NCBI GenBank assembly: GCA_037893225.1
Contig: JAZGUH010000026.1
Location: forward strand, 62,001 to 126,000
DNA: 64,000 bases
Source of the DNA: Hippasteria phrygiana
Lineage: Eukaryota > Echinodermata > Asteroidea > Valvatida > Goniasteridae
Reading direction: 5' to 3'
The notes beneath the pieces were generated by a model, which ran no database searches, had not been told where the DNA came from, and saw nothing but the letters and a program-made list of their open reading frames with translations. This document shows, in pieces, positions 21,655-52,389 of this stretch (position 1 is its first letter; every line of letters begins with the position of its first letter). The translations under genes were made by a program, and so were the position numbers.

Positions 21655-21695
<41 letters not shown>

Positions 21696-21775: not shown

Positions 21776-21806
<31 letters not shown>

Positions 21807-23653: not shown

Positions 23654-23660
23654 ATTGAAA

Positions 23661-25000: not shown

Positions 25001-25002
25001 CT

Positions 25003-26282
<1,280 letters not shown>

Positions 26283-26394: not shown

Positions 26395-26580
26395 AATGAA
26401 TTTTCAAACCAAACAAAGAAAATTGGCAGGAGAGGGGTTTGAACCTGAGACCTCCGAAATACTGTACCGGCGCTCTACTAACTGAGCTATTTTGACCTAT
26501 GTTGGCAGTCATCTGGTAGACCATCGGTACAGTATTCTGGAGGTTGCAGATTCAAATCCCACTCCTGCCGGTTTTTCTAA
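26395..26580. mobile_element. Two tRNA-derived SINE ends in inverted orientation
   Basis: AATTGGCAGGAGAGGGGTTT (minus-strand SINE) at 26420 is followed by the inverse order TTGCAGATTCAAATCCCACT at 26545. Both belong to the 4520-4620 family. The pair abuts the left boundary of the giant palindrome. Confidence 0.75.
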
Positions 26581-26696
26581 TTACACTTGTGCTGTTAAGA
26601 AACAATTTTGATTTCTTGCTTTTGTAAACTTGACCTTCATGAAAATTTGTTTACTAGAAATATCACCACTTTCTTTTCATAGGTTGGTTTTCATCA

Positions 26697-28765
26697 TCTC
26701 TCATGATGCAATCCTGTCATCCTAAACTTGACTCCTGTATCCATCTCATCCGCGTTGCCGTATTACAATGATTCAAATGACAACCAGTCAGCTGACGACA
26801 ACCAATCAGAGATCGTCTATGGTAAGTCAGTTGAAAAGATGTAGTTAAGCATTGTCTTGTACAGTGTGATACCGGTCATACGACCTCGATCTGCTACCAA
26901 GGGTCAATTTTATGAAGCTGCTTAACAGTTAATAGAAAAGCTGTGCTAACCTTTAACATACACACAGCCAAGATGTACTCAAGCTTGAACATGCATAGAG
27001 ATTTCAATTGTGGCAGAATTTACTTAATATAGTGATATTAAGTACATTCTGCTTCTTAAGTCAACATGCCCGATTACAGTTTCTGTGAAATGAACAAAGG
27101 TTCTATGAGCAGAAGATCGTGTACTTAGTATCACCATGGAATTTGCCTGTTGAGAGCATTGTGTGGTCCAGCAATGAGAACCATGGTTTTAATAGTTACA
27201 TGTCATTGGTTGGTGCATGGTATTCATCATCTATGCATACAAACTGTGTTTCTCTCAGTTGAACAATATGAATGGCACACGATGTGCATGGCTTATTTCT
27301 GAAGATTTATAGATGTTCATTATTCCTCTATCTATGGTGTAATTAATTGTCAATAGACCTATGAAGAAATGATGTCAAGCTTTGTATTCGCATGCTCCTA
27401 TCTAAAATACGCATTTAAACAAAGCATGATGTCATTTTGTCATAGGTCTATTCCTATTATGAGTTGTTCACAGTTGTCGACAGCTTTTGCAGGGTGTAGT
27501 CTAGACCTCAATCTTGAAAATAGTTTTTGGGATGTGTGTTCATCTTGAATTGCTTAATTTCTCTTATACATGTAGAGATTTCCAAAAGGCGGCATTTTTT
27601 ATGGCTTTGTAACAATTAAAGTCTACAAAATTCTCTACACATTCTCTTTCAAAACAGACGTTCTGATTACAACAACGGTTTTACTGCCAGCATTATGCAA
27701 AAGCAACAAGAATGTTTTCATAATTTAGGTGTTGTCTGATACCTTACTGCAATTTGTTTGTTTCTACCGGGGTTACCAATTTCTTTTTAATAAATTGTTT
27801 TGCAGACACTGTGTTAGAGAGCGACATTCCTTGTTACCGTGCAGATGTCACTCCTTCAAAAGATGATGCCCTGTTACCATGGAGATGTCACTCCTTCAAG
27901 ACGTGATGCCTGTCCAGTATTGCGCTATTTGAAAGTAAACAAAGTAGTGAATTGTTCGTGTGTTCCCTGATTAACAACTTTGGTGTAAAATACCAAAATA
28001 AACCCAAAAGACAAAACATTTGTGTAATTTGCTCAGAAATGTACATCACTTTAGTTCTCAGTGCCAATCGCTTTTGGTTTGTTTCAAGATTCTTTTCTTT
28101 GACACACAGTTACTTTATATTTACAGAAAGCATTGTTACAGCAAAGAAATAATGAGGGAAAACACTTATAGAGATTGTTATGAGGCCAAAAAGTATTCTA
28201 GGTTTTGCCTTGATTAATTTCTTCTTTAAAAATTTGGTCAGAAATCAAACTAAAAATGTATCTTGGCCAAAAACACAAACAGCCATCAATGAACTGAAAT
28301 TTCATAATGGCACTCATTTTGCACTGTAAAAAAATTCCTGTTTATAAAAAGAAATCAACTCTTTCATTAAGAAAATGCTCAATATGTAGATCTGTGTAGA
28401 TTTGCAGATTATCCAAATTTAAAAAGCCATGATACTAAACATGTTCTGAAGAAAACCCAAGTCAAGATACCAAAATGATACTTTTTGGCCTCACTTAATA
28501 TTGATTATGCTTTGTGTAATTTACAGGAACATTCAATGCTAAATGACACATATTACAATGTCAAACAAAGGCTCTTGGACACTCAATCTTGTTTATTTAT
28601 ATTTTATTTTAAGAACTGTGTTTAAAACATTTGAAGAAAAAAATGCAAATTTAAAAACCAAAATAGATTTTGTACTCAAATCAAGAGCTTTAAACAATGT
28701 GACCTTTGTATGTGTTTAATTGCATTGAGTGTTTCTGAAATATAGCGCAGTTTAATTTTAAGAGA
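26697..28765. other. Outer part of left arm, no supported gene
   Basis: A splice-like unit near 26690-26826 (…SSALPYYNDSNDNQS, then GGTAAGTCAG) is conserved in the right arm at 51960-52090, but a 1-bp indel shifts the frame between copies. The sequence 27952-28152 is also well conserved between arms without a recognisable product. Confidence 0.45.
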
Positions 28766-30000
28766 GATGGATCCAACTTTGTCCCTCCCCGGGTGTGGGG
28801 ATGTCTCCAACTTTGTCCCTCCCCTGGTGTAGGGATGTCTCCAACTTTTTCCCTCCCCTGGTGTGGGGATGTCTCCAACTTTGTCCCTCCCCTGGTGTGG
28901 GGATGTCTCCAACTTTGTCCCTCCCCTGGTATGGGAATGTCTCCAACTTTTTCCCTCCCCTGGTGTGGGGATGTCTCCAATTTTTCCCCTCCCCCTGGTG
29001 TGGAGATGTCTCCAACTTTGTCCCTCCCCTGGTGTGGGGATGTCTCCAACTTTGTCCCTCCCCCTGGTGTGGGGATGTCTCCAACTTTGTCCCTCCCCTG
29101 GTGTGGGGATGTCTCCAACTTTGTCCCTCCCCTGGTGTGGGGATGTCTCCAACTTTTCCCCTCCCCTGGTGTGGGGATGTCTCCAACTTTGTCCCTCCCC
29201 TGGTGTGGGGATGTCTCCAACTTTGTCCCTCCCCTGGTGTGGGGATGTCTCCAACTTTGCCCCTTCCCTGGTGTGGGGATGCTCCAACTTTGTCCCTCCC
29301 CTGGTGTGGGGATGTCTCCAACTTTGTCCCTCCCCTGGTGTGGGGATGTCTCCAACTTTGTCCCTCCCCTGGTGTGGGGATGTCTCCAACTTTGCCTCTC
29401 CCCTGGTGTCGGGATGTCTCCAACTTTGTCCCTCCCCTGGTGTGGGGATGTCTCCAACTTTGTCCCTCCCCTGGTGTGGGGATGTCTCCAACTTTGTCCC
29501 TCCCCTGGTGTGGGGATGTCTCCAACTTTGTCCCTCCCCTGGTGTGGGGATGTCTCCAACTTTGTCCCTCCCCTGGTGTGGGGATGTCTCCAACTTTGTC
29601 CCTCCCCTGGTGTGGGGATGTCTCCAACTTTTCCCCTCCCCTGGTGTGGGGATGTCTCCCACTTTGTCCCTCCCCAGGTGTGGGGATGTCTCCAACTTTG
29701 CCCCTCCCCAGGTGTGGGGATGTCTCCCACTTTGTCCCTCCCCTGGTGTGGGGATGTCTCCAACTTTGCCCCTCCCCTGTGTGGGAATGTCTCCAACTTT
29801 GTCCCTCCCCTGGTGTGGGGATGTCTCCAACATTGTCCCTCCCCTGGTGTGGGGATGTCTCCAACTTTGTCCCTCCCCTGGTGTGGGGATGTCTCCAACT
29901 TTGCCCCTCCCCTGGTGTGGGGATGTCTCCAACTTTGCCCCTCCCCTGGTGTGGGGATGTCTCCAACTTTGTCCCTCCCCTGGTGTGGGGATGTCTCCAA
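28766..30000 (+). repeat. 34-bp minisatellite in left arm, about 36 units
   Basis: The unit TCCAACTTTGTCCCTCCCCT plus GGTGTGGGGATGTC is repeated with few substitutions and is flanked on both sides by ATGGATCC. Since 34 is not a multiple of 3 and the unit lacks stops, long frames open on both strands. Confidence 0.98.
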
Positions 30001-31199
30001 GTCTTTTCTCATGGATCCATCACTAATTGTACATTTTTTAACATGTATGCATGCAAAGGTATGGTTCAAGGTTCAAATTCTGATTCTATTTTTTATTTAA
30101 TGGTTACAGCAGAAAATATCTGTTCAAGAAAATATCTGGCTGTTTTATTTTAATTCTAGTGCATATGTAATGACACTTTTTTTCAAACTTAGTTTTTTCT
30201 CACTTCAACAAAATTCCATTCCTTTTTCTAGTTTAGCGCATATAAGTTTTAAATTTTTTTTCTCTCTTTTTTATGCAAATCGCCCATCACAAGCCCATGG
30301 TAACAAGTCTGTCGCTATAGGCACTGGTGTTGGTGTCTAGACTAACTGTTACCTTGTCTAAGTCATTCAAACTGACCACATTGATATTTTCATTCACATA
30401 TTTTAACTCAGAATTTTCCCCTGGGTGGGGACATTTCTTTTTTCTTTTTCACTTTGTCCATGCATGCCATGGTTTAAATATCCATACAAATCGCAAGTTT
30501 TGCATTCATCAGATGTTAATCATGAACCATACCGTTTTTGCTAATTTGTATTTATGTGGCATGTTCTCTCAAGATCTGACAAACTGGGTGAGACATTTAT
30601 ACACGTTTCTGATATTTTTTTCTGACAAATTTACGTCACTGGGATAGACTGCAATTTGACTTCCCAGAAAGGCTGATGATTTCAAAACTAATCATCACAA
30701 AAAGCTCTCCTTACCATGAACCAAAATTTGGATAGAAGTTCTTACCTAATCAAGAATCTTGATAGAACGTGATACATCATATTATAAACTTTTAAAAGCG
30801 ACATGAAAGCCACTTCCACTAACCGAGTCAAAATCTTGCATCTTAAAAATCTGTGAACCCAAAGACAATGCATTATTCAGTTGCATATCAAATTCACAAG
30901 TCAATTTTATTATTTGTAATTCAAATTTCTGAACAGAAAAAAAGAATATATATTTTCACATTTGGTGAAATTTTAACATTCACATTGATTGTATACATTT
31001 TGTTGGTTTATTTTTTGTTTACATTGTCACTCTTTTGGCTAAATTCAAATTGAAAAACTTCCTTCATCAGGGCAACAATGAATGACTAATTGGTGTGACC
31101 TAATGCAAAGCCTCAGCTTGTTGGAGTGGTTTTCATGTTGTAGAATACATAATGCAATATTTAACTTTTAAATCTTACTTTTTTAGCAACTCTCTATTC

Positions 31200-31370
31200 A
31201 AACTCATTGTACAACGCAGTGGCGTTGTGCAAACGTCTGTCGCTGGTTGGCGCCCTCTACTGCCCAGAGCGTGTGGCGACCCGTGGCCCAAGTACTATGG
31301 TTGGTATACCTTTTGTTCAGTTAAATTTGCTCACAATGTGCCACTGGTGCTCTAAGCCACTGGTGTGCTG
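31200..31370 (+). repeat. GTTGTGCAAACGTCTGTCGC repeat, copy 1 of 4
   Basis: The same segment occurs inverted at 34430-34600, direct at 43100-43270 and inverted at 46310-46470. The two copies within each arm are more diverged from each other than from their mirror partners. Confidence 0.9.
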
Positions 31371-31560
31371 CTTTCCATGATTTGACAAGCTGATCAAAAA
31401 AAAGAAAAATCTCCAAAAATCACACAAATAGGAAAGAAAGGATTCCAAATGCCTCCTTAGGTCTTCGTCGGCTGAATGGATGAGTGTAGTGGACTGTGGA
31501 CCAACATTCACTTTTTCACTTTTTTTCAGTTGGTACCCGTCACTCTTTGTTCCTGTTTAA

Positions 31561-31746
31561 ACAGGTCTCTTTTTCGCCATGGTCGTGATGACCAAACCTT
31601 TGATCATACAGGACATCTGCCTCAGATCCGAGGGAGCTCTAGACCTGATTGATGATGGGGACCTCTGCCCAGGTGTGTGGTGTGAGGGTTGGAAAAATGA
31701 CATTCTGATATGGCTGTTCAACTTCACTCACAGGTACTCAGGTTGA
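31561..31746 (+). other. Exon-like ORF conserved in both palindrome arms
   Basis: After AAACAG the frame reads GLFFAMVVMTKPLIIQDICL, then GALDLIDDGDLCPG and WLFNFTH, ending in TGA. The mirror copy at 45926-46111 has the same 186-bp length, no indels and five substitutions (three silent; Glu to Lys and Leu to Pro). No family is recognised. It could be an exon of a duplicated gene or simply conserved repeat DNA. Confidence 0.3.
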
Positions 31747-31799
31747 CAAATTGGTTTCACTTGTTGTAGGAAGTCAGTTTATCACAAGGCGATATCCAA

Positions 31800-33900
31800 G
31801 ATGACATTGGGTTATGAAGGAAAGAAAAAGACCTAACTATAATTATTAAAAATAAATAAGTTTTGATTATTAATTAAACTGGTTTTAAAAGTACACAAAA
31901 TTGAAATTAATAAGTTTAAATTCTCTTGTCAAAGATAACATTTGGGGCACACTAAATTTCTTGAATGAAAATTTTCATACTAGTGTTAATCTGTAGGTCT
32001 CATGGCGATAGGTTTACATTCAGTCAGTTAAAAAAAAACAAATCATGAATTGTATAGATCTTAAATCCAAAATAAAATCTAAATCATAAAATCATATTTA
32101 GACATATCCATGGAACATAAGTAAAATAATTAGGTGAACAACAAAGTTCACGAGAATCTTAAAATTGTTCACAGGTAGCAGTTAAAAACAACTGAAAGCA
32201 AAATTGTAAAGAAATTGACTTTGAATACTTCTGGAAATGTCTTCATACTTTAAAAGCAAAGCATCATTTATTTCAAGTTAATCCATAAACAGTAAAAGTT
32301 AACATATTTAGGCACTTGATCTTCCCATTTCAGGCAGTTAATAATTTCAATGTTACAAAACCATTAAAATGCAAATATTTTAGATAACATTTCTTGTGAA
32401 GGACATATTAGATATATATTTACAACTTACTGTTAATAAACGTATAGTAAACATAAAAAATAAATTAACTAACTTAAACCAATTAACTTACAAAAATTGT
32501 AAACTTAAAGTAAATTAACAGTAAACCTATAGTAATTAAAGGACAGTAAATATGTAGTAAAATTACTATACATGGACATGTATAGTACTTAAATAAAGTT
32601 AAATTAAACTTTCCACAAACCTGTAGTAAACTTAGGATTAACTTCTAAGTACATTGGACATCCATTGTTTGCTGAGTTTGAATAAATAAATAAATAAATA
32701 TATAACATAATGCTGTTTTGAATAGATTGTTCAACTTTAAATGAAAGCTTACATGCAGTGTACAATAGTTAGTCATGCAATGAAAAAGTAGTAATACCCA
32801 ATTCTGCCAAAATTGTCTCTTCATCTTCTGCCAACAAACCTGGTATTTCTGAAAGTTATTTGGTGTCAAATACCTTTTTTGACACTAGTTCATAAATCTG
32901 TTCATTTTTTTCTTGCATGACCAAATACGGAATTACGCCTTGCAAAACAGAACATCAGTTTTAGGTTGTTAGTCTCTAGTTATACAAATAAAGGCTTTTC
33001 CATATTCGTGTAACTCACCAAAGAAAAACAATTCGAAAGCAACATTTTGAGAATTTCTAAACAGTTTTCCCGATGCAGAGCCCACAGGTAGTGGATTATC
33101 CACTGAAAAACATTTAGAGATCAAACTAAAATAGCTGGCAAAAAGCCTAGTAATAACTGCAACAAAAATGTCTGAACCAGTCACGCTTTGCAAGACGGCA
33201 AAAAGTGTCTAAATTTGAGGAACAGCAGTTTTTCTCTACACAAAATCCCAGACAATGAATTTTTTTTTTTTTTTATTATAAAGATCAAACTAAAATAACT
33301 TCACTGGCAAAGCTCAAAACTTTCAGGTAACCTGTTTTGGTTTCTTATCATGTTGTTCTGTATAAAAAATGACACCTGTATTTTTCATGAAATAGAAACA
33401 TTAAATATAGAAAGTTTCGCTAATGAAGTCATCAAAGTAATATAAAGTACTTTATTGTATTTTGACTCAAGATAAAACAGAGTAAGTGTTAATTCAGACT
33501 TTGAGTTTACTCACTAAATTTATTCAATTAAAGATTTAAACCATGCAGTTCAACATGAGGGCTGCCTAAACAAGATGGCAATAAACCAATAAAACTAATA
33601 ATGATAATATTTATTATAGTCAGTTTTATTGTTAGTTTCTATCATTTAAATAACTTCATTGAAATAGGTCATCTTTAGTCATTTACAAGTTAGTTTTACT
33701 AAGTGGGCAAATTGTCTAGCATATGAGCGTAGAAGTAGATGCAAAGTCGTGACTTGTTTGCCCAAAACACGCTAATGTACTTCGTAAACCCAATGTCATC
33801 TACAATATCGCCTGTTGAATATATTTTGCAGTCAGAATAATGAAAATCTTTAAACACACTGTTTTGCTTGGAAGAAGCACAGTTTTTCATTACAAAAAAG
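31800..33900. other. Very AT-rich centre of left arm
   Basis: Short recurring TAAACTTACTG/AGTAAACTTA words at 32400-32640 and an (AAAT)n run at 32684-32702. No gene was seen. It is mirrored at 44100-45890. Confidence 0.6.
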
Positions 33901-34429
33901 GCTATTTTTCTATGCATTTGAATGCCGTAAATTTAATTAAATTTTTTTCTGCAAAAAACAAACAAAAAAACTGCAGTTCTTTCTATGCAAGTGAAACCAA
34001 GATATCCCTGAGTATTGTGAACATTTCCAAAACAAAATACTTGATAAAAAGTTGTGAAGTAGACAGCCATATTGGAATGTTGTTTCTCCAATCAGCACAT
34101 CATCATCTAGGCTGAAGTCGTCATTATTTTGAAGGACCAGAACTCAATTGGTGATGGAGTGGAAAAGTCCAAATAAAAACGGCCATTTTGTTTTTATTTT
34201 TTTACCAAAGTTCACCACCAAAAACACAACTAAAGAACCCAGCGGCCTGGTTGCCCGAACAGGGGGTGACGTCCCGAAAACGCCGCCATATACAGACTCA
34301 CGAAGGCTTAAGTACTAGACATAGTGAATCCTTTCTGACCTTTTTTAGGCCATTGTTTGGTTTTTCAATAGGCACTTTCACCCACATGACAATTAAGTCA
34401 TGTACTAGGCAAATAAGCTTGTCGAATCA

Positions 34430-34600
34430 GGTGGAGGCAGTATACCAGTGGTGCAGAGTACCAGCGGCACATGAGCAAATTTTGCTGAATAATAGGTATA
34501 TCAACCATAGTACTTGGGTCATCAGGTTGCTACATGCTCTGGGCAGTAGAGGGCACCAACCAGCGACAGACGTTTGCACAACGCCACTGCCTTTTTTTTG
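34430..34600 (-). repeat. GTTGTGCAAACGTCTGTCGC repeat, copy 2 of 4
   Basis: Inverted relative to 31200-31370. Together they form the ends of a 3.4-kb inverted repeat nested within the left arm. Confidence 0.9.
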
Positions 34601-34788
34601 GTCTCTTTTTTTTTGAAAAAAAATTGAAAAGGGGTTCCCCTTGTAATAAATTTGTACGAAAAAAAAATTGAAAAAAGCCCCCCCCTTGTCATTATTTTGT
34701 CAGAATGTTTAAAGGCCCCTTCCTCTCAATTAAGAGGAGCAACCTTTAAAATGTGGTTTACCAAGGATACTCCATTGTTGGAGTAAAA

Positions 34789-34942
34789 AAAGGACTGCAT
34801 TGTATGCAAATGTTGCCCAACAATGAACCCTTGGGCCATTTGCATATTACCCTATGCATATTAATAATGCATAGATGTTACATGCAAATTACACAAGGTT
34901 TGCACTGTGGGACACATTGCAACATACAATGCAGTCCCTTTA
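34789..34942. mobile_element. TIR element AAAGGACTGCATTGTATG
   Basis: AAAGGACTGCATTGTATGCA and CATACAATGCAGTCCCTTT end a 154-bp element with the central palindrome GCATATTAATAATGCATA. The mirror copy is at about 42750-42905. Confidence 0.85.
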
Positions 34943-35058
34943 AAGATGTCATTTTGTACCATGTTTCTGTGACCTTTGTTGCAAGAGGGCGGTTTTCATT
35001 TTTGTTTTCATGCTTCTAATTTAGCTTAAATTGACATTTCTCAATTTTTTTGGTATAG

Positions 35059-35132
35059 GAATTCAGAGATGGATACTCCATGCAAATCCAAAATGTCACA
35101 GCCCAGCAAAAGTGGCCGAGGTCACCCAACAG
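35059..35132 (+). other. Second exon-like segment shared by both arms
   Basis: GGTATAG precedes it and a GTACAA donor-like site follows. From the ATG at 35069 it reads MDTPCKSKMSQPSKSGRGHP. The right-arm mirror (about 42600-42657) reads MDISRPSKRGKGHP, differing by an 18-bp in-frame gap. The frame survives in both, but no family is recognised. Confidence 0.3.
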
Positions 35133-35139
35133 GTACAAA

Positions 35140-36810
35140 ATAACACCTTGCAAGTGTGCAGCCTGTCAACTTGGAATGAGTCGAATAAAATTTAATTTGT
35201 AATCGTTTTTTTTTGGAAAGTATGGTGTGCAAATTGTTCTGTTTTGTCAATGAATTTCATTTCTGGACATCAAAAATAAGTGATTCAAATGGTCATTGTA
35301 TTGCTTGGTATTGCAAACAAAATTCTACTTTTGAACTGTAAACAGTTTCGATGTAAATTTGGAATCTAAAAACAAGTTGAATGCAAGCATGAATTTTATC
35401 GACTCGTTAAAAATCCAACTCATTCCACAGTTACAAGCTGCCATACTTAAGCCAAACAAAATCTGGTTTCAGGAAAAGATACTAAAAAAAACAAAGGATG
35501 CGGCTTTTTGGGGCTATTTTTTAGGAACAGAAATATTTAATGTCAACATTAATTGCACATGAAGCATTTTTGTGGCATTTCAGTTTTTTTCTTTTTGTAA
35601 ATAGTTTGCCATTTGGCAATTTATCAAAACAATCTCTTTTGATACAATTTTCAAAATCTTTAATGCGCTAGAAATAGTCGCAATTGTGGGCACGCTGTCG
35701 CATCAGTTATTAAGCTTTTCAAGCAAGTTTTAGAGAACAAAAATATGCAAGCAGAAACCAGATTTGTTTTGGCCTTATCCTTGGTAAACCACTTCTGACT
35801 TTTCCCATACATGGCGAGCATTTGCCAGCTGATGTTAATCAAGGAACAGTTACTTTCATTTGCCAACAAAAACAGAATTTACGAAGCACCGTCAGCCATC
35901 AATAAATCTGAAAAACGGTGAGGAATCAAAACTTGAAATATCTGTAAGCTTTCTGCAAGATTGGTACACTTTCAAGTTGAATTTCTTTTTGCAACTGAAA
36001 AGGAGTGAAATGTTCTATTTTAAGAACTCTGAATCCTTTCATTAGTTGGCATAAAAGTATAAAACATTATCTTTTTAGTATCAGAGTGTGTAGAACATCA
36101 ACTGGCAAATTCTCAACATGTCACAAATCTGCAAAACGAGTAAGTTTTTGGGGATTTTTCGTTTTTAAATTGATTCTTTTTTGCACAAATTAGAGAGCAT
36201 TTTTTAGCTTTTTGTAATCTAGGAGTTTTAAATCCTGACAATTCAGAAAAAACAAAACATTAAAGTTTTTTTTTACTTGTTGGAAAAAGGAACTTTTCAG
36301 CTCATTTTGATGGATCAGTGTTAACTCCCGACAATATAGATCTAAAGGAATGAAAACTTTGATAAAACCTTTCGATATTCATTGTGTAAACCATGTTTTA
36401 GGGTTTAGTATCTCCAAACTAAAACTGACAATTTCCGACTCGTTTTGCAAGATTTGGTTAAATATATAATCACAAAACGAATGAATAAATCACTAAACAA
36501 GCGAGTAGACCAGACACTCAAACCTAGCTTTTTTTTTTAGACAAAGGCTAATGGATGGAGGGGCGGGTAAAAATTGGGGGAATTTTGTTCTGAAACTTCC
36601 TAGGAAGGAATTGTCCATTTTGCCATTATTTCAGTCTTGAATTTCAGCATTGTTGAGCTGTAAGTTATTGTAGTGAAGTGCTTTTAGTATTTCTTCATTG
36701 ATCGCAGCATAAAGAATTTGCAAACTGGACATTTTTAAATGTTACATTGAGCGTTTTGCAAAATTTGGCTAGACTATTAAAGTTGTTTTCACTTAAAACT
36801 GCATTTTTGT
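35140..36810. other. AT-rich arm sequence, nothing recognised
   Basis: Mirrored by 41050-42590. No long frames or repeats apart from short internal duplications. Confidence 0.5.
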
Positions 36811-36817
36811 TTTTTTG

Positions 36818-36842
36818 GGGGGGGGGGGGGGGGGGGGGGGGT
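36818..36842 (+). repeat. Poly-G tract in left arm
   Basis: About 23 G, mirrored by the poly-C run at 41019-41040 in the right arm. Confidence 0.9.
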
Positions 36843-37919
36843 GGTGGGATTTCTAGCAACTCCAGAAATAATGCATAATTGTAATCTCTTTTTGTTATTA
36901 GGTGGTTCAGCTTGTTCATCCTTCATCGGTGCCGAGTGGTTTGAGATCGCACAGATGTCTCAAGAAGCTTCAAACATCTCCATCTTCTCTGATATCTGTT
37001 GAAATAAAATAGACAATTTCAAAGTAGTTAAAATACCGACACTTAATAGGATATTGTTACATTTTTATCAATGAATGCAACTGCTTTATGTGTCATTTAA
37101 ATGTTCATTTAATGTTGAACATTCGCTACGGAAAATTCCAAGGTTTATCGATTGTTCATGCCTTGTCAAGAAACGATTCTTTGCAATACATTGTTAGGAC
37201 ACTTGTGTAATTCGGACGAGAAAATAGTACAAATTGAGTTTCATTTTTGCCATCTGTAACAAATGCAGTGGGTACAGTAAGATTATTTTGTACCATGTAG
37301 GTACAAGTGACAGGCAAAAGGAATGAATTAAAGCGGATAAACATTCGATATCTTGTACTGTCCATTTTATTTACCGTTGCTGTCTTTCACTAGCTTTATT
37401 TTTAAGATTACTCAGGTCAAGTGCTCTCATTTCATTCTGAGAAATTTGTGGAAAAAGGTGCAATTCAAAGTTTGGCAAAAGATTATGCAGGATTTAAGGA
37501 TTTTGATTGTATGAAGGTTAAGAATACAGCATTAGTTTGTTTTAAAACAAGAATCAGAAAGTAGAACTGGAAAGATTTGGTCGCATGGTGCCACACCCTC
37601 ATCACGTGACCACATTCCCGCCAAATTTAAAAGATTTTCCCTGGAGCGTTCGTCTTGAAACTCGGTTCTAAATTCGTCAAACTGACCAAAAATATTACCC
37701 GGTAAAACCTCCAAAAGGAATACCTAGCATGGTCGATGTTCTCACACGGCTCTGCTTCGGTTTAGTGGAAATTTGACTCCAATACTAGTGTTGAATTACG
37801 GCTGTTCTGCCGAGTTCGGGAGCGCTGGTAGAGGCGATGTTGGTCTGGTGGAGCCCCGCCGAGAAATGACCAGAACGAGGCCGCAACCGTATGCAAATGA
37901 GCACGTGACTTTTAACAAT

Positions 37920-38870: not shown

Positions 38871-39020
38871 TGTTTCATAAAAGTGGCATTTTCTCAAAGA
38901 CTAAAGCCATTTGCGAAATGAAGGTATGATTTAGCAGCTTCCTACAAATTTGTCCATTTCTGGGGTCCACGAGAGGATTTTTAACGGTGGAGCCACGCCC
39001 GCAGCCATTTTTCGCAAAAG

Positions 39021-39051
39021 GGGTACTTCCGATTCTGAACACTCCCAAGCA
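39021..39051. other. 31-bp spacer at the palindrome axis
   Basis: The non-palindromic GGGTACTTCC...CACTCCCAAGCA lies between arms ending CGCAAAAG and starting CTTTTGCG. The arms next to it match for over 70 bp with about two mismatches. Confidence 0.92.
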
Positions 39052-41018: not shown

Positions 41019-41040
41019 CCCCCCCCCCCCCCCCCCCCCC
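41019..41040 (+). repeat. Poly-C tract in right arm
   Basis: Mirror of the poly-G at 36818-36842. Confidence 0.9.
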
Positions 41041-42749
41041 ACGAGAAAAAAAAAACAACTTCAATAGTCCAGCCAAATTTGACAAAATGCTAAACGTTTT
41101 CGATTCGTTTAAAAAACGAGCAATATCACGTTTACAAATTCTTTATGCTGTTAATAATAAAGATTAAATAAATACTAAAAGCACTTCACTACAAGAACGT
41201 CCAGCTCAACAATGCTGAAATTCTAGATTGAAGTATTGGCAAAACGACCAATTTCATTCCAAACACTTTTTTCCTAATGAGGTTAAGCAAAAGATATTAA
41301 ACATGAACCAAATTTTCCCCCAATTTGTACGCCCCTCCCTTTCTTCCCCTAACCTTTGCTTGAAAAAAAACCCAATAAGTTTTAATGTCTGTGCACTCGG
41401 TTGTTTTGTGATTTATTCATTCGTTTGGTGATTATTTGTTTAACCAAATCTTGCAAAACGAGTCAGAAATTGTCCGTTTCAGTTCGGAGATACTAAGCCC
41501 TAAAACATAGTTTGCGCAATGGAAATCTTTTTATCAAAGTTTTCATTCCTTTTGATCTTATATTGTCGGGATTTAAAAACTAAATGATACAACAAAAGCT
41601 CAAAATCTGTAACTTGAGCCAAAAATCTATTTAAAACAAAGAATGACTCGTTTTGCAGATTTGTGACATGTTGAGAATTTGCCAGTTGATTTTCTGTACA
41701 CTCTGATACCAAAAAGAATAACTAATGAAAAGATTTAGAGTTTTTAAAATGGAATTTTCACTCCCATGTTCAGTTGCAAAAACATTCAGCTTGAAAATGT
41801 ACCAATCTTGCAGAAGGCTGACAGACTTTTGAAGTTTGGATTCCTCACTTTTTTCAGATTTGTTGATATTAAATTGTGCTCGGTAAATTTTGGAACCATT
41901 TTTTTTTTTGGCAAATGAAAGTAACTGTTCCTTGATTAATATCAGCTGGCAAATGCTCGTCATGTATCGGAAAAGTCGGAAGTGGTTTACCAAGGATAAG
42001 GCCCAAAAAAATCTGGTTTCCAATTCGTTGCTTGCATCTTCGTAAAATTTAGTCTAAAAATTACATTGCAGTTCAATAACTGATGCGACAGCGTGCCTAC
42101 AATTGTGACTCTTTGGAGTGCATTAAGGATTTTCAATATTGTATGAAAAAGGAGATTATTTTGAATAATTGCCTTTAGAAAAGAAAACAAAATACAAGAA
42201 GAAAACTGAACTGCGACAGAGTACAAAAATATATTTTTGTTGTTGAAAAATTAAAAAGCCGCATCCTTTGTTTTTCAAGTATCTTTGGCTGGAACCAGAT
42301 TTTTTGGGCCCAAAGTGTTGCAGCTTGTAACTGTGGAATGAGTCTGATATTTTTATGTCGATAAAATTCATTCTTGCCAGTATTCAACTGGTTTTCAAAT
42401 TCAAAATGTACAAAAGTAGAATTTTGTTTGCAATGCAATGAAACATTGAATCACTTATTTCTTGTCCAGAAATGAAATGCATTGACAAAACGGAACAATT
42501 TGCACACCATACTTTCCAAAAGAAAACTATTAAAAATTAAATTTTATTCGACTCATTCCAAGTTTACAGGCTGCACGCTTACAAGGTGTTATTTTGTACC
42601 TGTTGGGTGACCTTTCCCCCTTTTGCTGGGTCGTGAGATATCCATCTCTGAATTCCTATACCAAAAATGAAGGGGAAATGAAAACAAAACATGAAAACGC
42701 CCTCTTGCGACAAAGGTCACAGAAACATGGTACAAAATGACATCTTTAA

Positions 42750-42905
42750 AGGGACTGCATTGTATGTTGCAATGTGTCCCACAGTGCAAACCTTGGGTAA
42801 TTTGCATGTAACATCTATGCATTATTAATATGCATAGGTAATATGCAAATGAGCCCAAGGGTTCATTGTTGGGCAACATTTGCATACAATGCAGTCCTTT
42901 TTTTT
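42750..42905. mobile_element. TIR element, mirror of 34789-34942
   Basis: Same termini GGGACTGCATTGTATG and CATACAATGCAGTCC in the right arm, so the insertion predates the palindrome. Confidence 0.85.
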
Positions 42906-43099
42906 TACTCCAACAATGGAGTATCCTTGGTAAACCACGTTTTAAAGGTTCCTCCTCTTAATTGAGAGGGGGGGGGGCCTTTAAACATTCTGACAAATTA
43001 ATGACAAGGGGGTGCTTTTTTTCAAAAAAATTTTCGTACAAATTTATTACAAGGGGAACCCCTTTTCATTTTTTTTGTCAAAAAAAAAAGACCAAAAAA

Positions 43100-43270
43100 A
43101 AAGCAGTGGCGTTGTGCAAACGTCTGTCGCTGGTTGGCACCCTCTACTGCCCAGAGCATGTAGCAACCCAATGACCCAAGTACTATGGTTGATATACCTA
43201 TTATTCAGCAAAATTTGCTCATGTGCCGCTGGTACTCTGCACCACTGGTATACTGCCTCCACATGATTCA
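43100..43270 (+). repeat. GTTGTGCAAACGTCTGTCGC repeat, copy 3 of 4
   Basis: Mirror partner of 34430-34600. Confidence 0.9.
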
Positions 43271-45925
43271 ACAAGCTTATTTGCCTAGTACATGACTTAA
43301 TTGTCATGTGGGTGAAAGTGCCTATTGAAAAACCAAACAATGGCCTAAACAAAGGTCAGAAAGGATTCACTATGTCTAGTACTTAAGCCTTCGTGAGTCT
43401 GTATATGGCGGCGTTTTCGGGACGTCGCCCCCTGTTCAGGCAACCAGGCTGCTGGGTTCTTTAGTTGTGTTTTTGGTGGTGAACTTTAGTAAAAAAATAA
43501 AAACGAAATGGCCGTTTTTATTTGGACTTTTCCACTCCATCACCAATTGAGTTCTGGACCTTCAAAATGACGATGACTTCAGCCTAGATGATGATGTGCT
43601 GATTGGAGAAACAACATTTAAATATGGCTGTCTACTTCACAATTTTTATCAAGTATTTTGTTTTGGAAATGTTCCACAAATGAAACAAAATCACAATACT
43701 CAGGGATTTGTTGGTTTCACTTGCATAGAAAGAACCACACTGTTTTTACTTTTGTTTTTTGCAGAAAAAAAATACTTTTAAACTAGAACTATCCATTTTT
43801 TATTTAAGCACGAAAACCGTATTTTGGTAGAAAAATATAACAATTTATGGCATTCAAATGCATAGAAAAATTGCCTTTTTTGTAATGAAAAACTGTGCTT
43901 CTTCCAAGCAAAACAGTGTGTTTAAAGATTTTCATTGTTAGATTCTGACTGCAAAATATATTTAACAGGCGATATTATAGATGACATTGGGTTTACGAAG
44001 TACATTAGTGTGTTTTGGGCAAACAAGTCACGACTTTGCATCTAATACCTACTTCTACGCTCATATGCTAGATAATTTGCCCAATTAGTAAAACTAACTT
44101 GCAAATGACTAAAGATGACCTATTTCAATGAAGTTATTTAAATGATAGAAACTAACAATAAACTGACTTTATTAGAAGTATTATTATTATTATTTCTATT
44201 TGTTTATTGCCATCTTGTTCAGGCAGCTCTTATGTTGAATTGCATGGTTTAAATCTTTAATTGAATAAATTTAGTGAGTAAACTCAAAGTCTGAATTAAC
44301 ACTTACTCTTATCTGTTTTATCTCGAGTCATAATACAATAAAGTACTTTGTAAATGTATTACTTTGATGACTTCATAAGCGAAACTTTTTATATTTAATG
44401 TTTCTATTTCATGAAAAATACAGGCGTCCTTTTTTAATAACAAAATGATAAGAAACCAAAACAGGTTACCTGAAAGTTTTGAGCTTTGCCAGTGAAGTTA
44501 TTTTAGTTTGATCTTCATAATGTTTTTTCAAAATAATATTCACTGTCTGGGATTTTGTATCTGCAAAAACTGCTGTTCCTCAAAATCTTTAGACGCATTT
44601 TGCTGTCCGGCAAAGTGTAACTGTTCAGACATTTTTGTTGCAGTTATTACTGGGCTTTTTGCCAGTGACATTATTTTAGTTTGATCTTCAAATTTTTTTC
44701 AGTGGACAATCCACTACCTGTGGGCTCTGCATCAGGAAAACTGTTCAGAAATTCTCAACATTTTTGTTTTTGGAAAGCCTTTATTTGTATAACTGGAGAT
44801 TAACAACCTAAAACTGATGTTTCATTTTGCAAGGCATAATTCCCTATTTGGTCATCAAGACAAAAATGAACAGATTTATGAACTAGTGTCAAGAAAGGCT
44901 TTTTATACTAAATCATTTAAAGAAATACCAGGTTTGCTGGCAGAATATGAAGGACGATTGTGAAAGAATTAGGTATTACTACTTTATCATTTCATGACTG
45001 CAACTAATGTACATTGCATGTGAGCTTTTATTTAAAGCTGAACAATCTGTTCAAACAGCATTATGTTATTTATTTATTCAAACTCAGCCTACAATGGATG
45101 TCCAATGTACTTAGAAGTTAATCCTAAGTTTACTGTAAGTTTACTACAGGTTTCCTGTTCATTTGTGGAAAGTTTAATTTAACTTTATTGGAAGTACTAT
45201 ACATTTACATGTTTACTGTATGTTAATTACTACATGCATGGGTTTACTGTTTATTAAGTTTATTAAACATTTTAACAGTGAGTTATAAATATATATCTAT
45301 AATAGAAATGTTCTCTAAAATATTTGCATTTTTAATGGTTTTGTAATTACTTAATTTATTAACTGCCTGAAATGGGAAGATCAAGTGCCTAAATATGTTT
45401 ACTTCTACTGTTTATGGATTAACTTGAAATAAATGATGCTTTGCTTTTAAAGTATGAAGACATTTCCAGAAGTACTTGAAGTCGATTTCATTAAAATGTT
45501 GCTTTAAGTTATTTTAACTGCTACCTATGAACGATTTTAGGATTCCCATTTTAATTTTGTTGTTCACCTAATTATTCTATTTATGTTCCATGGATATGTC
45601 TAAATATGATTTTATGATTTAGATTCTATTTTGGATTTAAGATCTATACAATTCATGATTTGTTTTTTTTTAACTGACTGAATGTAAACCTATCGCCATA
45701 AGACCTACAGATTAACACTAGTATGAGAATTTTCATTCAAGAAATTTAGTGTACCCAAACGTTATCTTTGACAAGAACATTTTGTTAATTTTTAAAACCA
45801 GTTTATTCATTAACACTTATTTTTTGTTTCAATAATTAGAATTAGGTCTTTCATTCATAACCCAATGTCATCTTGGATATCGCCTTGTGATAAACTGACT
45901 TCCTACAACAAGTGAAACCAATTTG

Positions 45926-46111
45926 TCAACCTGAGTACCTGTGAGTGAAGTTAAACAGCCATATCGGAATGTCATTTTTCCAACCCTCACACCACACACC
46001 TGGGCAGAGGTCCCCATCATCAATCAGGTCTAGAGCCCCCTTGGATCTGAGGCAGATGTCCTGTATGATCAAAGGTTTGGTCATCACGACCATGGCAAAA
46101 AAGAGACCTGT
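45926..46111 (-). other. Mirror copy of the exon-like ORF at 31561-31746
   Basis: The same 62-codon frame including the stop, with GLFFAMVVMTKPLIIQ and CLRSKGALDLIDDG visible on the minus strand. Confidence 0.3.
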
Positions 46112-46309
46112 TTAAACAGGAACAAAGAGTGACGGGTACCAACTGAAAAAAAGTGAAAAAGTGAATGTTGGTCCACAGTCCACTACACTCATCCATTCAG
46201 CCGACGAAGACCTAAGGAGGCATTTGGAATCCTTTCTTTCCTATATGTGTGATTTTTGGAGATAATTTATTTTTTGGATCAGCTTGTCAAATCATGGAAA
46301 GCAGCACAC

Positions 46310-46470
46310 CAGTGGCTTAGAGCACCAGTGGCACATTGTGAGCAAATTTCACTGAACAAAAGGTATACCAACCATAGTACTTGGGCCACGGGTCGCCACA
46401 CGCTCTGGGCAGTAGAGGGCGCCAACCAGCGACAGACGTTTGCACAACGCCACTGCGTTGTACAATGAGT
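46310..46470 (-). repeat. GTTGTGCAAACGTCTGTCGC repeat, copy 4 of 4
   Basis: Mirror partner of 31200-31370. Confidence 0.9.
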
Positions 46471-47617
46471 TTGAATAGAAAGGCGCTAGAAAAGTAAGAT
46501 TTACAAGTTAAATATTGCATTATGTATTCTACAACATGAAAATCACTCCAAAAAGCTGAGGCTTTGCATTAGGTCACACCAATTAGTCATTAGTTGTTGC
46601 CCTGATGAAAGTTTTTTCAGTAAATTTGCATACAATTTGAATTTAGCCAAATAAGTGACAATGTAAACAAAAAGTAAACCCCAAAAATGTATACAGTCAG
46701 TGCGAATGTTAAAATTTCACCAAATGTAAAAATATATCTTCTTTTTTTCTGTTCAGAAATTTGAATTACAAATAATAAAATTGACTTGTGAATTTGATAC
46801 TCAACTAAACAATGCATTGTCTTTGGGTTCACAGATTTTCAAGATGCAAGATTTTGACTCAGTTAGTGGAAGTGGCTTTCATGTTGCTTTCAAAAGTTCT
46901 TAATATGATGTGTCATCTTCTATCAAGATCCTTCACTGGGTATAAACTTATATCAAAATTTTGGTTCATGGCAAGGAGTGCTTTTTGTAATGATTAGTTT
47001 TAAAATCATCAGCCTTTCTGGGAAATCAAATTGCAGTCTATCCCAGTGACGTAAATTTGTCAGAAAAAAAATATATCAAAAACGGGTATAAATGTTTCAC
47101 TCAGTTTGTCAGATCTTAAAAGAACATAACACATAAAACAAGTTCGCAAAAAGGTATGGTTCATGGCTAACATCTGATTACTACAAAACTTGCGATTTGT
47201 ATGGATATTTAAACCATGGCATGCATGGACAAAGTGAAAAAGAAAAGAAATGTCCCCACCCAGGGGAAAATTATGAGTTAAAATATGGGAATGAAAATAG
47301 CAATGTGGTCAGTTTGAATGACTTGAGCAAGGTAACAGTTAGTCTAGTCACCAATACCAGTGCCTATAGACAGATTTGTTACCATGAAAAACTAATATGT
47401 GCTAAATTAGGAAAAAAACGGAATTTAGTTCAAGTGAGAAAAAACAAACTTCAAAAAGATTTTCCAATTAATTATGCACTAGAATTCAAATAAAACAGCC
47501 AACATTTTCTGGACAAAAATACCTAAAAATAGAAAAATCAGAATTTGAACCTTGAACCATACCTTTACATACATACATGCATTTACAATAGTGATGGATC
47601 CATGAGAAAGGACTTGG

Positions 47618-48306
47618 AGACATCCCCACACCAGGGGAGGGACAAAGTTTGAGACATCCCCACACCAGGGGAGGGACAAAGTTGGAGACATCCCCACACC
47701 AGGGGGAGGGACAAAGTTGGAGACATCCCCACACCAGGGGAGGGGCAAAGTTTGAGACATCCCCACACCAGGGGAGGGACAAAGTTGGAGACATCCCCAC
47801 ACCAGGGGGAGGGACAAAGTTGGAGACATCCCCACACCAGGGGAGGGGCAAAGTTTGAGACATCCCCACACCAGGGGAGGGACAAAGTTGGAGACATCCC
47901 CACACCAGGGGGAGGGACAAAGTTGGAGACATCCCCACACCAGGGGAGGGGCAAAGTTGGAGACATCCCCACACCAGGGGAGGGACAAAGTTGGAGACAT
48001 CCCCACACCAGGGGGAGGGACAAAGTTGGAGACATCCCCACACCAGGGGGAGGGACAAAGTTGGAGACATCCCCACACCAGGGGAGGGACAAAGTTGGAG
48101 ACATCCCCACACCAGGGGAGGGACAAAGTTGGAGACATCCCCACACCAGGGGGAGGGGCAAAGTTGGAGACATCCCCACACCAGGGGAGGGACAAAGTTG
48201 GAGACATCCCCACACCAGGGGAGGGACAAAGTTGGAGACATCCCTACACCAGGGGAGGGACAAAGTTGGAGACATCCCCACACCAGGAGAGGGACAAAGT
48301 TGGATC
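47618..48306 (-). repeat. 34-bp minisatellite in right arm, about 20 units
   Basis: Reverse complement of the left-arm array and again bounded by ATGGATCC. It is shorter, and more of its units carry the extra C (GGGGGAGGG) variant. Confidence 0.98.
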
Positions 48307-50090
48307 CATCTCTCTTAAAATTAAACTACGCTATATTTCAGAAACACTCAATGCAATTAAACACATACAAAGGTCAAATGGTTTAAAGCTCTTGATTTGG
48401 GTACAAAACCAATTTTGGTTTTTCAAATGTGGGTTTTTTTCAAATGTTTCAAACACAGTTGTTGAAAAAAGACCAACAAGATTGAGTGTCCAAGAGCTCT
48501 TGTTTGACATTGTTATGTGTCATTTATGATGGAATGTTCCTGTAAATTACTTTGTCAAATATACACAAAGCACAATATCTTGTGAGGCCAAAAAGTATCA
48601 TTTTAGTATCTTGACTTGGGTTTTCTTCAGAACATGTTTAGTATCATGGCTTTTCTTAATTTGGATAATCTGCAAAACTACACACTGAGCTTTTTCTTAA
48701 AGACAGGGATGATTGTTTTTTGTGTTTTTTTTCTGTAATTTGTTTTACAGCGAGAAACAAGTACCCTTATGAAATCTCACTTCGTCGATGGCTGTTGATA
48801 CATTGTTTTTGGCCAAGATACATTTTTGGTTTGATTTCTGACCAAATTGTACTAAAAATCAATTAATCAGGACAAAACCTAGAATACTTTTTGGCCTCAT
48901 AACGATCTCTATAAGTGTTTTCCCTCATTATTTCTTTGCTGTGACAATGCTTTCTGTAAATATAAAGTAACTGTGTGTCAAAGAAAAGAATCTTGAAACA
49001 AACCAAAAGCGATTGGCATTGAGAACTAAAGTGATGTACATTTCTGAGCAAATTACAAAAATGTTTTGTCTTTTGGGTTTATTTTGGTATTTTACAACAA
49101 AGTTGTTAATCAGGGAACACACGAACAATTCACTACTTTGTTTACTTTCAAATAGCGCAATACTGGAAAGGCATCATGTCTTGAAGGAGTGACATCTCCA
49201 TGGTAACAGGGCATCATCTTTTGAAGGAGTGACATCTCCATGGTAACAGGGAATGTTGCTGTTTAACACTGTCTGCAAAAAGACAAAATTAAAAATGGGT
49301 AATGAGAAACAAAAAAATTACAGCAAGGTACCAGACAACATCCAAATTATGAAAGATTTCTCATGGCTTTTGCATAACACTGGCAGTAAAACCGTTGTAA
49401 TCAGAACGTCTGTTTTGAAAGGGAATGTGTAGAGAATTGTGTATACTTCAACGGTTACAAAGCCATCAAAAATGGCTCCCTTTGGAAATCTCTACATGGA
49501 TAAGAGAAATTAAGCAATTCAAGATGAACACGCATCCCAAAAACTATTTTCAAGATTGAGGTCTAGACTACACCTTGCAAAAGCTGTTGACAACTGTGAA
49601 AAACTCATAATAAATAACAGAGACAGAAGCTTTTCTGCAGCAATTCTTCTATGACTTGTGCAACACTTGACAATTGGGCATTAGTAATTTATCATTCAAC
49701 AGGAATGCATTAAGAATAGACCTATAACGAAATAACATCACGCTTTGTTTAAATGCGTATTTTGTTTAAATGCGTATTTGGTTTAAATGCGTATTTTGGA
49801 GCGAGGTGGGGACGTTGTCCCACCTTGCTCCTATCTAAAACATGCAAATAAACAAAGCATGTATCTTCATAGGTCTATTGACAATGTAATTACATCACGT
49901 TGGAATAATGAACCTCTATAAATCTTCACAAACGAGGCATGCACATTATGTGTCATATTGTTGAATTGAGAGAAACACAGCTTGTATGCATAGATGAATA
50001 ACATGCACCAATCAATGACATGTAACTATCCAACCATGGCTCTCATTGCTGGACCACACAATGCTCTCAACGGGCAAATTCCATGGTGAT

Positions 50091-51666
50091 GTTGAGCGCA
50101 ATCTTCAAAGGCGCGCATTTTTTAAATTTGCGCGCGCAATTTTTAAAAAATGCGCGCTGGGATTTTTTCATTTAAAGTTTGTGCGCGCAAACTTTAAATG
50201 CGCGCTACGGACAACAACCGAGGCACGATACTGACACAAACTACACGGTAGACATGAATTTTACATCGGCGTCAGACGCATGGCGGCCGTACCATCATGT
50301 TGTCATGAATATAGTTTGTGCAAATTATTTGCAAATTCGTATATTATGTGTAGCATTTATGTATTTGATTTGCAAGTATGTTGACATTGTGAACTATGCG
50401 AATACAATTTTCGATGTGAATTGTATTGAATATACTTTGTCGCATATCTTTGTGGTGATCTTCAAATATCATCTGTTATTACCTGAGATTCTGTGCTTCA
50501 ACCTTTATGAATTTTGGCTTTAAAGTTGGGTCATGTTTGGCTTGACAAGTTGCCTTCGCATGATGACATTAAGGCGGTCTGGGGGAAAATACATTTTTGG
50601 AGGTTTTTTTTTCATTGAGAAATATCTAAAACTGAACGGCAAACTTTCCAAATTTAAAACAAAATGGAAGATTAAGGAGCAATCTATAATTTGCATTGTT
50701 CACACAGCAAATGAGAGACTACTGGATAAGATTTCTTTTTACTATGAAGTTAAGTGATATTACACTAAGGGTATGGTCACATGGTGCACCCCGCGGCACG
50801 TACGGAACTTGACAAACGTACAATGCCAATCCTCGGTCCCGACTTTTTTTTTATGTAGACGGACATTTCCATCGGTTTTATAATTTTTGTAGAAAATTAA
50901 TTGTTTTAATTTCCAACAAAGAAGGGAACGAGAATGGCGATTTTGGTGTTAAAAAAAAGCGGTCCCGACCGCGATCAGGCAGCACCATATATAGCTCTAT
51001 GGGCAGCACGTTGATCGATCACGATCACTAACCCGTGACCAACAAACAATTGCCCTTATTTTTGAACGCGTGAGGGCGCTGCTAACATGTTTTTTGTCTA
51101 CATTCCTGAATCCACATAAAGTGTTCAAGTATCAGAAACCACATTCGGGCTCCAGACATTAAAAAATATGGGCAATAGCCTTTCCATTTTTAAAACCGCA
51201 CAGGTAGGTATGGGCGGCCAAAAGTTACAAACACTTTTAATTTGTGAACATAAATTGTGATCCAAATCAAAAATGTTAGACAAATCTTTTGAAAGGCAAA
51301 TGCATTATGTCATTTATTAGCTTGTTCCTAATATATTGAGCACTGTTTTAAATATTTTCTAGTATTTTTACAAAGTTTTGTTATTCTATTTTTGTTTCAC
51401 ACTATTGGTTTTCCATACTTTGGTCAAACCTTGAATTGTATCCCAGCATCCCTTGTCAAGCGCTTTGTCACAAGAAATTTAGAACTTACAGGTCGTGTGC
51501 AACCCGTTCACTGTTTGAATAATAAAGATCGCGTGATTTTCAAAAATTGCGCACCATCTGTATTGCGCAAATTTTTAATTTACGCAAGCAAACTAAGTTT
51601 GTGTGTTCAAAAATTGCGCAACGTGCATTTTTTTAAAAACGCGCGCCTTTGAAGATTGCGCTCAAC
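50091..51666. mobile_element. 1.6-kb TIR insertion present only in the right arm
   Basis: GTTGAGCGCAATCTTCAAAG at the left and CTTTGAAGATTGCGCTCAAC at the right are perfect inverses. Both subterminal zones are full of GCGCGC/AATTTTTAAA blocks (50110-50210, 51540-51655). The mirror site in the left arm (about 27134) reads straight through from ATGGTGAT to ACTAAG, so this is the occupied state of an empty site. An extra AGCGAT sits at 51667-51672. No transposase is recognised; the ORF at 50179-50523 is unassigned. Confidence 0.88.
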
Positions 51667-52141
51667 AGCGATACTAAGTACACGATCTTCTGTTCATAGA
51701 ACCTTTATTCATTTCACAGAAACTGTAATCGGTAGAGGGCATGTTGACTTAAGAAGCAGAATTTGCTTATTATCGTGATGCAACAATTGAAATCTCTATG
51801 CATGTTCAAGCTTGAGTACATCTTGGCTGTGTGTATGTTAAAGGTTAGCACAGCTTTTCTATTAACTGTTAAGCAGCTTCATAAAATTGTCCCTTGGTAG
51901 CAGAGGTCGTTTGACTGGTATCACACTTTACATGGCAATGCTTAATAACTACATCTTTTCAACTGACTTACCATGGACGATCTCTGATTGGTTGTTGTCT
52001 CTGACTGGTTGTCATTTGAATCATTGTAATACGGCAACGCGGATGAGTTGGATACTGGAATCAAGTTTAGGATGACAGGATCGCATCATTGAGAGATGAT
52101 GAAAACCAACCTATGAAAAGAAAGTGGTGATATTTCTAGTA

Positions 52142-52342
52142 AACAACCCTAACCCTCCAGGGTATTTTGGCTAGAAACCCTGCCAGACGCATCAGATTGC
52201 ATACTTTGTCACATCATGGAGGATATATCCTTCCTCCATGGTCACATTGACTTTTGTGCAGAGTCCAGCAAGGTCAAGCTGTCACCACAGATGCACTGTA
52301 CTGTGTGTGCTGCGTCTGGCAGGGTTAGGGTTAAGGTAAAGT
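52142..52342. mobile_element. TIR element with telomere-like ends, copy 1
   Basis: AACCCTAACCCTCCAGGG begins it and GTTAGGGTTAAGG ends it. An inner pair CCCTGCCAGACGCA / TGCGTCTGGCAGGG is perfectly inverted. It interrupts the right arm, whose left-arm mirror lacks it. Confidence 0.8.
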
Positions 52343-52389
52343 TTACAAATACAAGAAATTGTTTCTTGACGGCACAAGTGTAAGTTCAC

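Follow-up and report, generated by a model that had tools for sequence, protein, structure and literature searches.

The question raised by this locus of the echinoderm Hippasteria phrygiana is how two arms of 12-13 kb came to face each other across a few tens of bases, and whether they are two copies of one sequence or two alleles joined in error. The window, i.e. the whole stretch of 64,000 nucleotides that was analyzed, contains:

26581..39020, + strand: arm A of an inverted duplication, 12,440 bp, from self-comparison
39021..39051, no strand: unpaired spacer at the axis, exactly 31 bp
39052..52383, - strand: arm B, reverse complement of arm A, 13,332 bp, from self-comparison
38864..39209, no strand: axis hairpin of 346 nt, 86.9% alike over 352 columns

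Comparison of the window with itself gave a chain of minus-strand matches running from 26647-27132/52146-51670 inward to 37109-38333/40679-39435. A more sensitive comparison added the outermost pairing (26581-26637/52383-52333) and revealed that 38864-39209 matches itself inverted at the axis. Single matches reach 5685 bits, which excludes chance, and the arms are long, inverted and collinear, with outer and inner limits of homology that coincide, as expected of an inverted segmental duplication or large palindrome. The preliminary description of a giant inverted repeat of about 26 kb with a 31-bp spacer is therefore borne out, as is the recurrence in both arms of a minisatellite (28772-30000 and 47614-48304), a poly-G/poly-C run (36822-36840 paired with 41021-41039) and an AT-rich core (28.8% GC at 32-34 kb and 29.7% at 44-46 kb). 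The GC content of the arms is 34.9% and 35.4%, and that of the flanks is higher (40.7% and 41.0%).

Anchored blocks replaced a first global alignment, which had misaligned the outer 1.5 kb because of an insertion found in arm B only. The arms differ at 10.7% of the aligned columns (1054 of 9874), with 137 gap events between them in five anchored blocks. By convention a segmental duplication measures at least 1 kb with at least 90% identity; against this 90% threshold stand 89.3% over all 9874 columns and 91.0% over the 7789 columns away from gaps. A mismatch of roughly 3%, as described earlier for the best part (27950-28215 with 48865-49130), holds for that part, which is 97.4% identical (7 mismatches in 266), but not for the arms overall. 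A chimera in which a single molecule was read twice is ruled out by this level of difference, since read-level fold-backs would be expected to yield identical arms. The copies also differ in their insertions and arrays:

50091..51669, + strand: insertion of 1.58 kb in arm B only, with terminal inverted repeats
52147..52332, - strand: insertion of about 185 bp in arm B only, beside the outer end of the arm
28772..30000, + strand: 34-bp minisatellite of arm A, 36 units
47614..48304, - strand: 34-bp minisatellite of arm B, 20 units, for which a 103-bp period was called too

The larger insertion carries GTTGAGCGCAATCTTCAAAGGCGCGC at 50091, the complement of which ends at 51666, and arm A is uninterrupted at the counterpart site near 27131; by reading, its candidate target-site duplication is ATC at best. 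The smaller one has telomere-like ends (CCCTAACCCT / AGGGTTAGGG). The two minisatellite arrays have the second unit variant in common, and their interior order differs between the arms. Together, the private insertions, the unequal arrays and the divergence of about 10% point to two long-separated copies.

This divergence is patchy. Across 400-column blocks the mismatch ranges from 2.5% to 15.8%, with a block variance 9.4 times that of the permuted control, and the longest identical run is 155; none of 5000 permutations of 20-bp chunks reached the observed variance, nor did any of 5000 reach that run. Transitions make up a smaller share of the mismatches that cluster next to gaps (325:360 vs 226:143), so that noise in the alignment may account for some of the 10.7% and some of the patchiness; the patchiness remains once near-gap columns are dropped. 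A hidden Markov segmentation of the divergence beat a uniform model on BIC, but it mostly caught small near-gap mismatch clusters, and blocks free of such columns were used instead as evidence for tracts. Over 49 windows, GC content rises as divergence falls (Spearman -0.38). Low-divergence tracts lie at 26905-27011, 31213-31824 and 34126-34991, the latter two with copies of a repeat:

31213..31394, + strand: repeat copy 1 in arm A; arm B partner 46278-46459, 1 mismatch in 182
34413..34593, - strand: repeat copy 2, inverted, in arm A; arm B partner 43100-43280, 7 mismatches in 181

Within an arm the copies are 84% alike, and to their cross-arm partners they are 99.5% and 96.1% identical; the stretches just outside the first repeat-bearing tract (30500-31083 and 31825-32440) are about 90% identical. 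Neutral repeats should not otherwise diverge more slowly than their surroundings, which argues for conversion between the arms. It was this inverted pair that had been described as a TIR element; it does recur in both arms, but as two copies of a repeat.

We consider it probable (about 0.7) that the locus arose long ago by inverted (palindromic) segmental duplication, in DNA where no genes are recognized, and has since undergone patchy arm-to-arm conversion. Inverted duplication is a known kind of structure, and among the readings offered beforehand it is the one that fits. The palindrome as such is probably functionless. The event may have begun when a DNA end that was broken or had stalled annealed on itself, or when a replication fork switched template, at a short inverted repeat; about 12.5 kb would then have been laid down in mirror orientation around a 31-bp loop, and the outer end would afterwards have been joined to unrelated DNA. 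Any inverted microhomology bounding the loop, including the repeat that would have primed the event, is indistinguishable from the arms themselves. Gene conversion would since have kept the three low-divergence tracts much alike, while template switching in the hairpin may have kept the inner axis stem nearly perfect.

On either side of the spacer the stem pairs at 114 of the 118 innermost bp and at 117 of the first 130 bp; the hairpin is near-perfect in its inner part only. Judged from its sequence, it is a plausible cruciform-forming locus. The zone beside the axis is asymmetric between the arms:

38334..38863, + strand: arm A piece with no counterpart in arm B
39210..39434, - strand: arm B piece with no counterpart in arm A

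The arm A piece contains most of 38538-38868, a 75% alike copy of 37918-38226. The arm B piece begins with 100 bp that are distantly related, in direct orientation, to the hairpin arm next to them (59% over the 409 columns of a self-overlapping match; 76% over 50). A sensitive axis comparison gave no match between the two pieces. Divergence rises weakly toward the axis (Spearman -0.26, p 0.07, 49 windows), the 15 windows within 4 kb of it averaging 15.0% and the 34 others 8.8%. Perhaps, and this we put forward tentatively, a gene-free-looking palindrome of 26 kb escaped collapse by being homogenized by half: some tracts and the axis stem would be renewed, by conversion between the arms and by template switching in the hairpin, while the DNA near the axis diverged and lost its symmetry, leaving the structure self-limiting and stable. 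PMC10766186 describes long palindromes whose spacers measure tens of bases as unstable and rare, and the preliminary description had called the persistence of this one notable. A long, diverged palindrome is indeed present; its survival is less surprising in that, according to PMC10164571, inverted repeats in double-stranded DNA become less unstable as they diverge, although the main result of that paper is that long single-stranded DNA gains no protection even from 25% divergence. An old palindrome, diverged by about 10% and asymmetric beside its axis, would be a natural record of how such structures stabilize.

The low-divergence patches might instead reflect purifying selection, each arm carrying exons or regulatory sequence from a duplicated pair of genes. 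This is a serious possibility, though we lean against it. A splice-site scan, the scores of which are approximations, gave 25 exon-like candidates, two of which rank first:

30782..30928, - strand: terminal-exon-like stretch of arm A, with acceptor, 48 codons and stop
46757..46903, + strand: its arm B counterpart, acceptor and stop kept
31565..31672, + strand: weak internal-exon-like stretch of arm A, acceptor and donor kept in both arms

The claim that exon-like reading frames recur in both arms stands for these two stretches, which keep their splice signals; the rest of the 25 rank lower. Between 30782-30928 and its counterpart, open in frame in both arms, the substitutions by codon position are 0/2/8. 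A slightly longer segment, with 0/2/9, is the best of 113 (binomial 0.0014 uncorrected, about 0.15 after correction), and none of the other 112 had a third-position excess below 0.10. With 93.2% identity (10 mismatches in 147) and a surrounding block at about 90%, this best candidate leaves the alike tracts unexplained; those tracts also take in repeats. The weak internal stretch does lie within a low-divergence tract, and constraint may explain part of the pattern there. At E <=0.1 the six frames of arm B gave no Pfam domain, and at E <=5 six candidate stretches gave no Pfam match. In searches of PDB one exon-like stretch had no match at E <=5 and the best match of the other had an E-value of 1.3; no homolog was found. 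The arms were accordingly rejected as a protein-coding gene pair.

It is unlikely that the assembler turned at the 346-nt hairpin and came back along the other haplotype of a very heterozygous animal, leaving two alleles head to head. Patchy divergence, many indels and insertion differences are also typical of diverged haplotypes, a strong hairpin stands exactly at the turn, and duplicate-like misassembly of haplotype pieces was reported in amphioxus (PMC2632668, in the portion available); such misjoins deserve checking wherever a palindrome turns up in a heterozygous genome. The return path, however, should enter the allele of the left flank, and the flanks are unrelated, as had been stated from the outset. 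Flank comparison found only short dispersed repeats in common, which is evidence against a head-to-head join. The left flank has a GPCR-like ORF and the right a zf-C4H2 match. A search with the GPCR-like ORF yielded 47 candidates, none of which reached E <=0.001. In 11581-25200, where four of the six frames were scanned, no GPCR match was recovered at E <=0.01; three minus frames gave a low-complexity PT repeat at a TTGG array. One dispersed repeat adjoins arm A:

26399..26576, no strand: dispersed repeat related to an Rfam tRNA-like copy at 4541-4613

Its end and the outer end of the arm lie no more than a few bp apart; by reading, its candidate target-site duplication is TAATT at best. The haplotype reading would further require another false join precisely where the homology ends, or else an indel larger than the 11.6 kb seen. 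The window also holds a perfect tetranucleotide array of 1051 bp, which hints at accurate long reads and so speaks against misassembly.

Less likely still is a remnant of an ODIRA inverted triplication that has lost its third copy. The short-spacer junction is as in the ODIRA model, but neither the 26.6 kb on the left nor the 11.6 kb on the right contains a third arm copy in direct orientation. Two opposite insertions of a mobile unit of 12-13 kb, or one giant foldback transposon as the preliminary description had suggested, are highly improbable: the arms do stop at matching points on both sides, and the hairpin at the axis is reminiscent of a foldback repeat, but six frames of arm B hold no transposase or other Pfam domain, no motif common to inner and outer ends was noticed on reading, no further copy above 80 bits supports such an element within the window, and only by coincidence would two insertions land 31 bp from each other.

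Among known systems, the mirror copy around a short unduplicated loop recalls fold-back or template-switch inverted duplications. In the extract of PMC10622511, two of three wild-type yeast events used a 5-bp repeat with a 35-bp spacer, close to the 31 bp here; in contrast to those cases, the present copy is known from an assembly and is old (about 10% diverged). Its geometry is also near that of ODIRA junctions, with 5-6 bp repeats 40-80 bp apart (PMC10766186, same part), although no third copy is seen in the window. The spacers of human fold-back duplications were far larger, 766-70,466 bp in 21 of 21 sequenced cases (PMC3907307).

The arms resemble the conversion-maintained palindromes of mammalian sex chromosomes in their length and in their mosaic of very-high-identity tracts. 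Those arms, in the available text of PMC8981503, are >99% identical, whereas ours are about 89% identical and hold no recognized genes. Our arms are also GC-poor relative to their flanks, opposite to the GC-biased conversion of primate palindromes (PMC8981503, in part).

Large inverted repeats also occur in the VCBP clusters of amphioxus, likewise an invertebrate, with a highly variable genome; those are haplotype-dependent and gene-linked (PMC2632668). The intergenic inverted repeats of Caenorhabditis lie between paralogous gene pairs, whereas our arms have no confirmed genes, and their intergenic arms measure 124-160 bp (at one locus 2207 bp with the genes counted in), as against 12-13 kb here. 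They are mostly 95-100% alike, although one case in C. remanei has 83% and C. briggsae has lost them; the figure here is about 89%. In both, as far as the excerpt of PMC1803023 extends, an old inverted duplication has been kept alike in parts, for which conversion has been proposed.

The window holds a large inverted repeat which, judged from its sequence, is probably an old inverted segmental duplication of a known kind (probability roughly 0.7). Self-comparison of the window on the opposite strand gave a collinear chain of matches running from 26647/52146 to 38333/39435, and a sensitive comparison extended the arm match outward to 26581/52383 and located an inner inverted pair within 38864-39209. 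At the axis, 117 of the first 130 bp flanking the spacer are paired, including 114 of the first 118. The preliminary description had placed the inverted repeat and its 31-bp spacer at these positions, and self-comparison, sensitive comparison and axis pairing all agree with it.

26581-39020, + strand: arm A, 12,440 bp
39021-39051: spacer, 31 bp
39052-52383, - strand: arm B, 13,332 bp
40680-40744: 65-bp piece, arm B only, with telomere-like GGTTAGGGTT at 40734
50091-51669: 1.58-kb DNA-transposon-like insertion with terminal inverted repeats, arm B only; arm A is uninterrupted there
52147-52332: insertion of ~185 bp with telomere-like ends, arm B only, at its outer edge

The arms were aligned in five anchored blocks (9939 columns, 137 gap events), leaving out the minisatellite and 38334-39036. 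Sixty-five outer-end columns, misaligned because of the B-only insertion there, were dropped, giving a raw mismatch of 1054/9874 (10.7%). Part of this is probably alignment noise, since transitions make up a smaller share of the mismatches clustered next to gaps than of the remaining mismatches; when the filter instead removed the outer end and every column lying 8 or fewer columns from a gap, mismatch was 9.0% in 7789 columns. In 400-column blocks of this set, divergence ranged from 2.5% (34129-34544) to 15.8% (36432-37608), with a block variance 9.4 times that of permuted columns. When 20-bp chunks were permuted, which keeps local clustering, the ratio was 3.7, reached by 0/5000 permutations. 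Seven identical runs of at least 90 columns were found, the longest (155) likewise reached by 0/5000 permutations.

The low-divergence tracts include a repeat pair, 31213-31394 and 34413-34593, whose members are 84% alike within an arm; between arms, the first differs at 1 of 182 positions and the second at 7 of 181. The remaining parts of these tracts are 97.2% (31395-31824), 97.9% (34126-34412) and 95.0% (34594-34991) identical between arms. Sequences flanking the first tract (30500-31083 and 31825-32440) show ~90% identity, and blocks closer to the axis fall to 84-86%. Arm-to-arm conversion would be the simpler account, since constraint is not expected on old repeats. That constraint instead keeps the tracts alike is possible, if the less favoured reading. 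Two observations count against conversion: arm GC lies below flank GC, and the first tract contains an exon-like stretch that has both of its splice sites. A second exon-like stretch (30782-30928), with acceptor and stop present in both arms, has 0/2/9 substitutions by codon position when counted over a slightly larger segment; however, this third-position excess was the best of 113 segments and is not significant after correction, and the stretch is just 93.2% alike and lies outside the tracts. Protein searches of arm B frames and the exon-like stretches gave no match.

The B-only insertions and the differing minisatellite arrays indicate that the arms are two real copies. The 34-bp unit is present 36 times in arm A and 20 times in arm B, where a 103-bp period was also found; the second unit is the same variant in both, and the interior order differs. 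No Pfam domain was found inside 50091-51669. Like the insertion at 52147-52332, the piece at 40680-40744 carries a telomere-like motif. Misassembly of the arms is unlikely, as it requires a second misjoin or a very long indel exactly at homologous ends, and a chimeric read would be expected to yield identical arms.

Short dispersed repeats are the sole DNA common to the left and right flanks, which carry the following features.

1862-1981, 11640-11867 and 60980-61203: dispersed repeat family, partly self-complementary, 78-85% alike
2541-2874 and 7214-7541: inverted repeat pair, left flank, 94% identical, 4.3 kb apart
4516-4628 and 26399-26576: dispersed repeat, tRNA-like-related
8267-8603: tandem array, 17/21/34-bp periods
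14162-14761, - strand: class A GPCR-like ORF, neuropeptide-receptor-like, later transmembrane part, left flank
16032-16125: tandem array, 4-bp period
18158-18678: tandem array, 60/70/130-bp periods
25229-26279: tandem array of the tetranucleotide CAGC with 263 copies at 100% matches, 300 bp beyond arm A
~61380-61481 (computed), - strand: zf-C4H2 domain end, ZC4H2-like gene exon, right flank, E 9.8e-19

The GPCR-like ORF gave a Pfam E of 8e-4, under the curated cut-off, and hit 11 sequences in PDB, of which neuromedin U receptor 1 was the best (E 2.6e-6); a large protein collection gave no match. By the families they belong to, this ORF and the zf-C4H2 match indicate an animal genome. Of the dispersed repeat, 4541-4613 is a match to the tRNA family of Rfam; ARAGORN found no tRNA. 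The copy at 26399 is built of two halves that are related to each other (71% over 164 columns) and oriented head to head, and the outer end of arm A falls a few bp from where this repeat ends. According to the excerpted text of PMC10622511, repeats are the sites at which yeast resolves broken inverted duplications; on that basis the outer end of arm A may, speculatively, be the secondary junction, in which case arm B would be the original.

The axis stem (38864-39209) folds at -164.4 kcal/mol, against a shuffle mean of -41.5 (n=100; DNA parameters). Directly outside it, 38334-38863 and 39210-39434 show no mutual match; a copy of 37918-38226, 75% alike, falls largely within the former, and in the latter the first 100 bp are distantly related to the hairpin arm. 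This asymmetry would be expected if a longer ancestral arm had undergone two reciprocal deletions and, equally, if the primary spacer had been ~1.1 kb and the small hairpin had arisen in it later. With a ~1.1 kb spacer, the structure would be comparable in spacer length to human fold-back duplications, for which the excerpted part of PMC3907307 gives 766-70,466 bp at 21/21 sequenced junctions. Reciprocal deletions would leave the spacer near the values excerpted from the yeast and inverted-triplication (ODIRA) reports, namely 35 bp in 2/3 wild-type yeast fold-back events (PMC10622511) and 40-80 bp at ODIRA junctions (PMC10766186).
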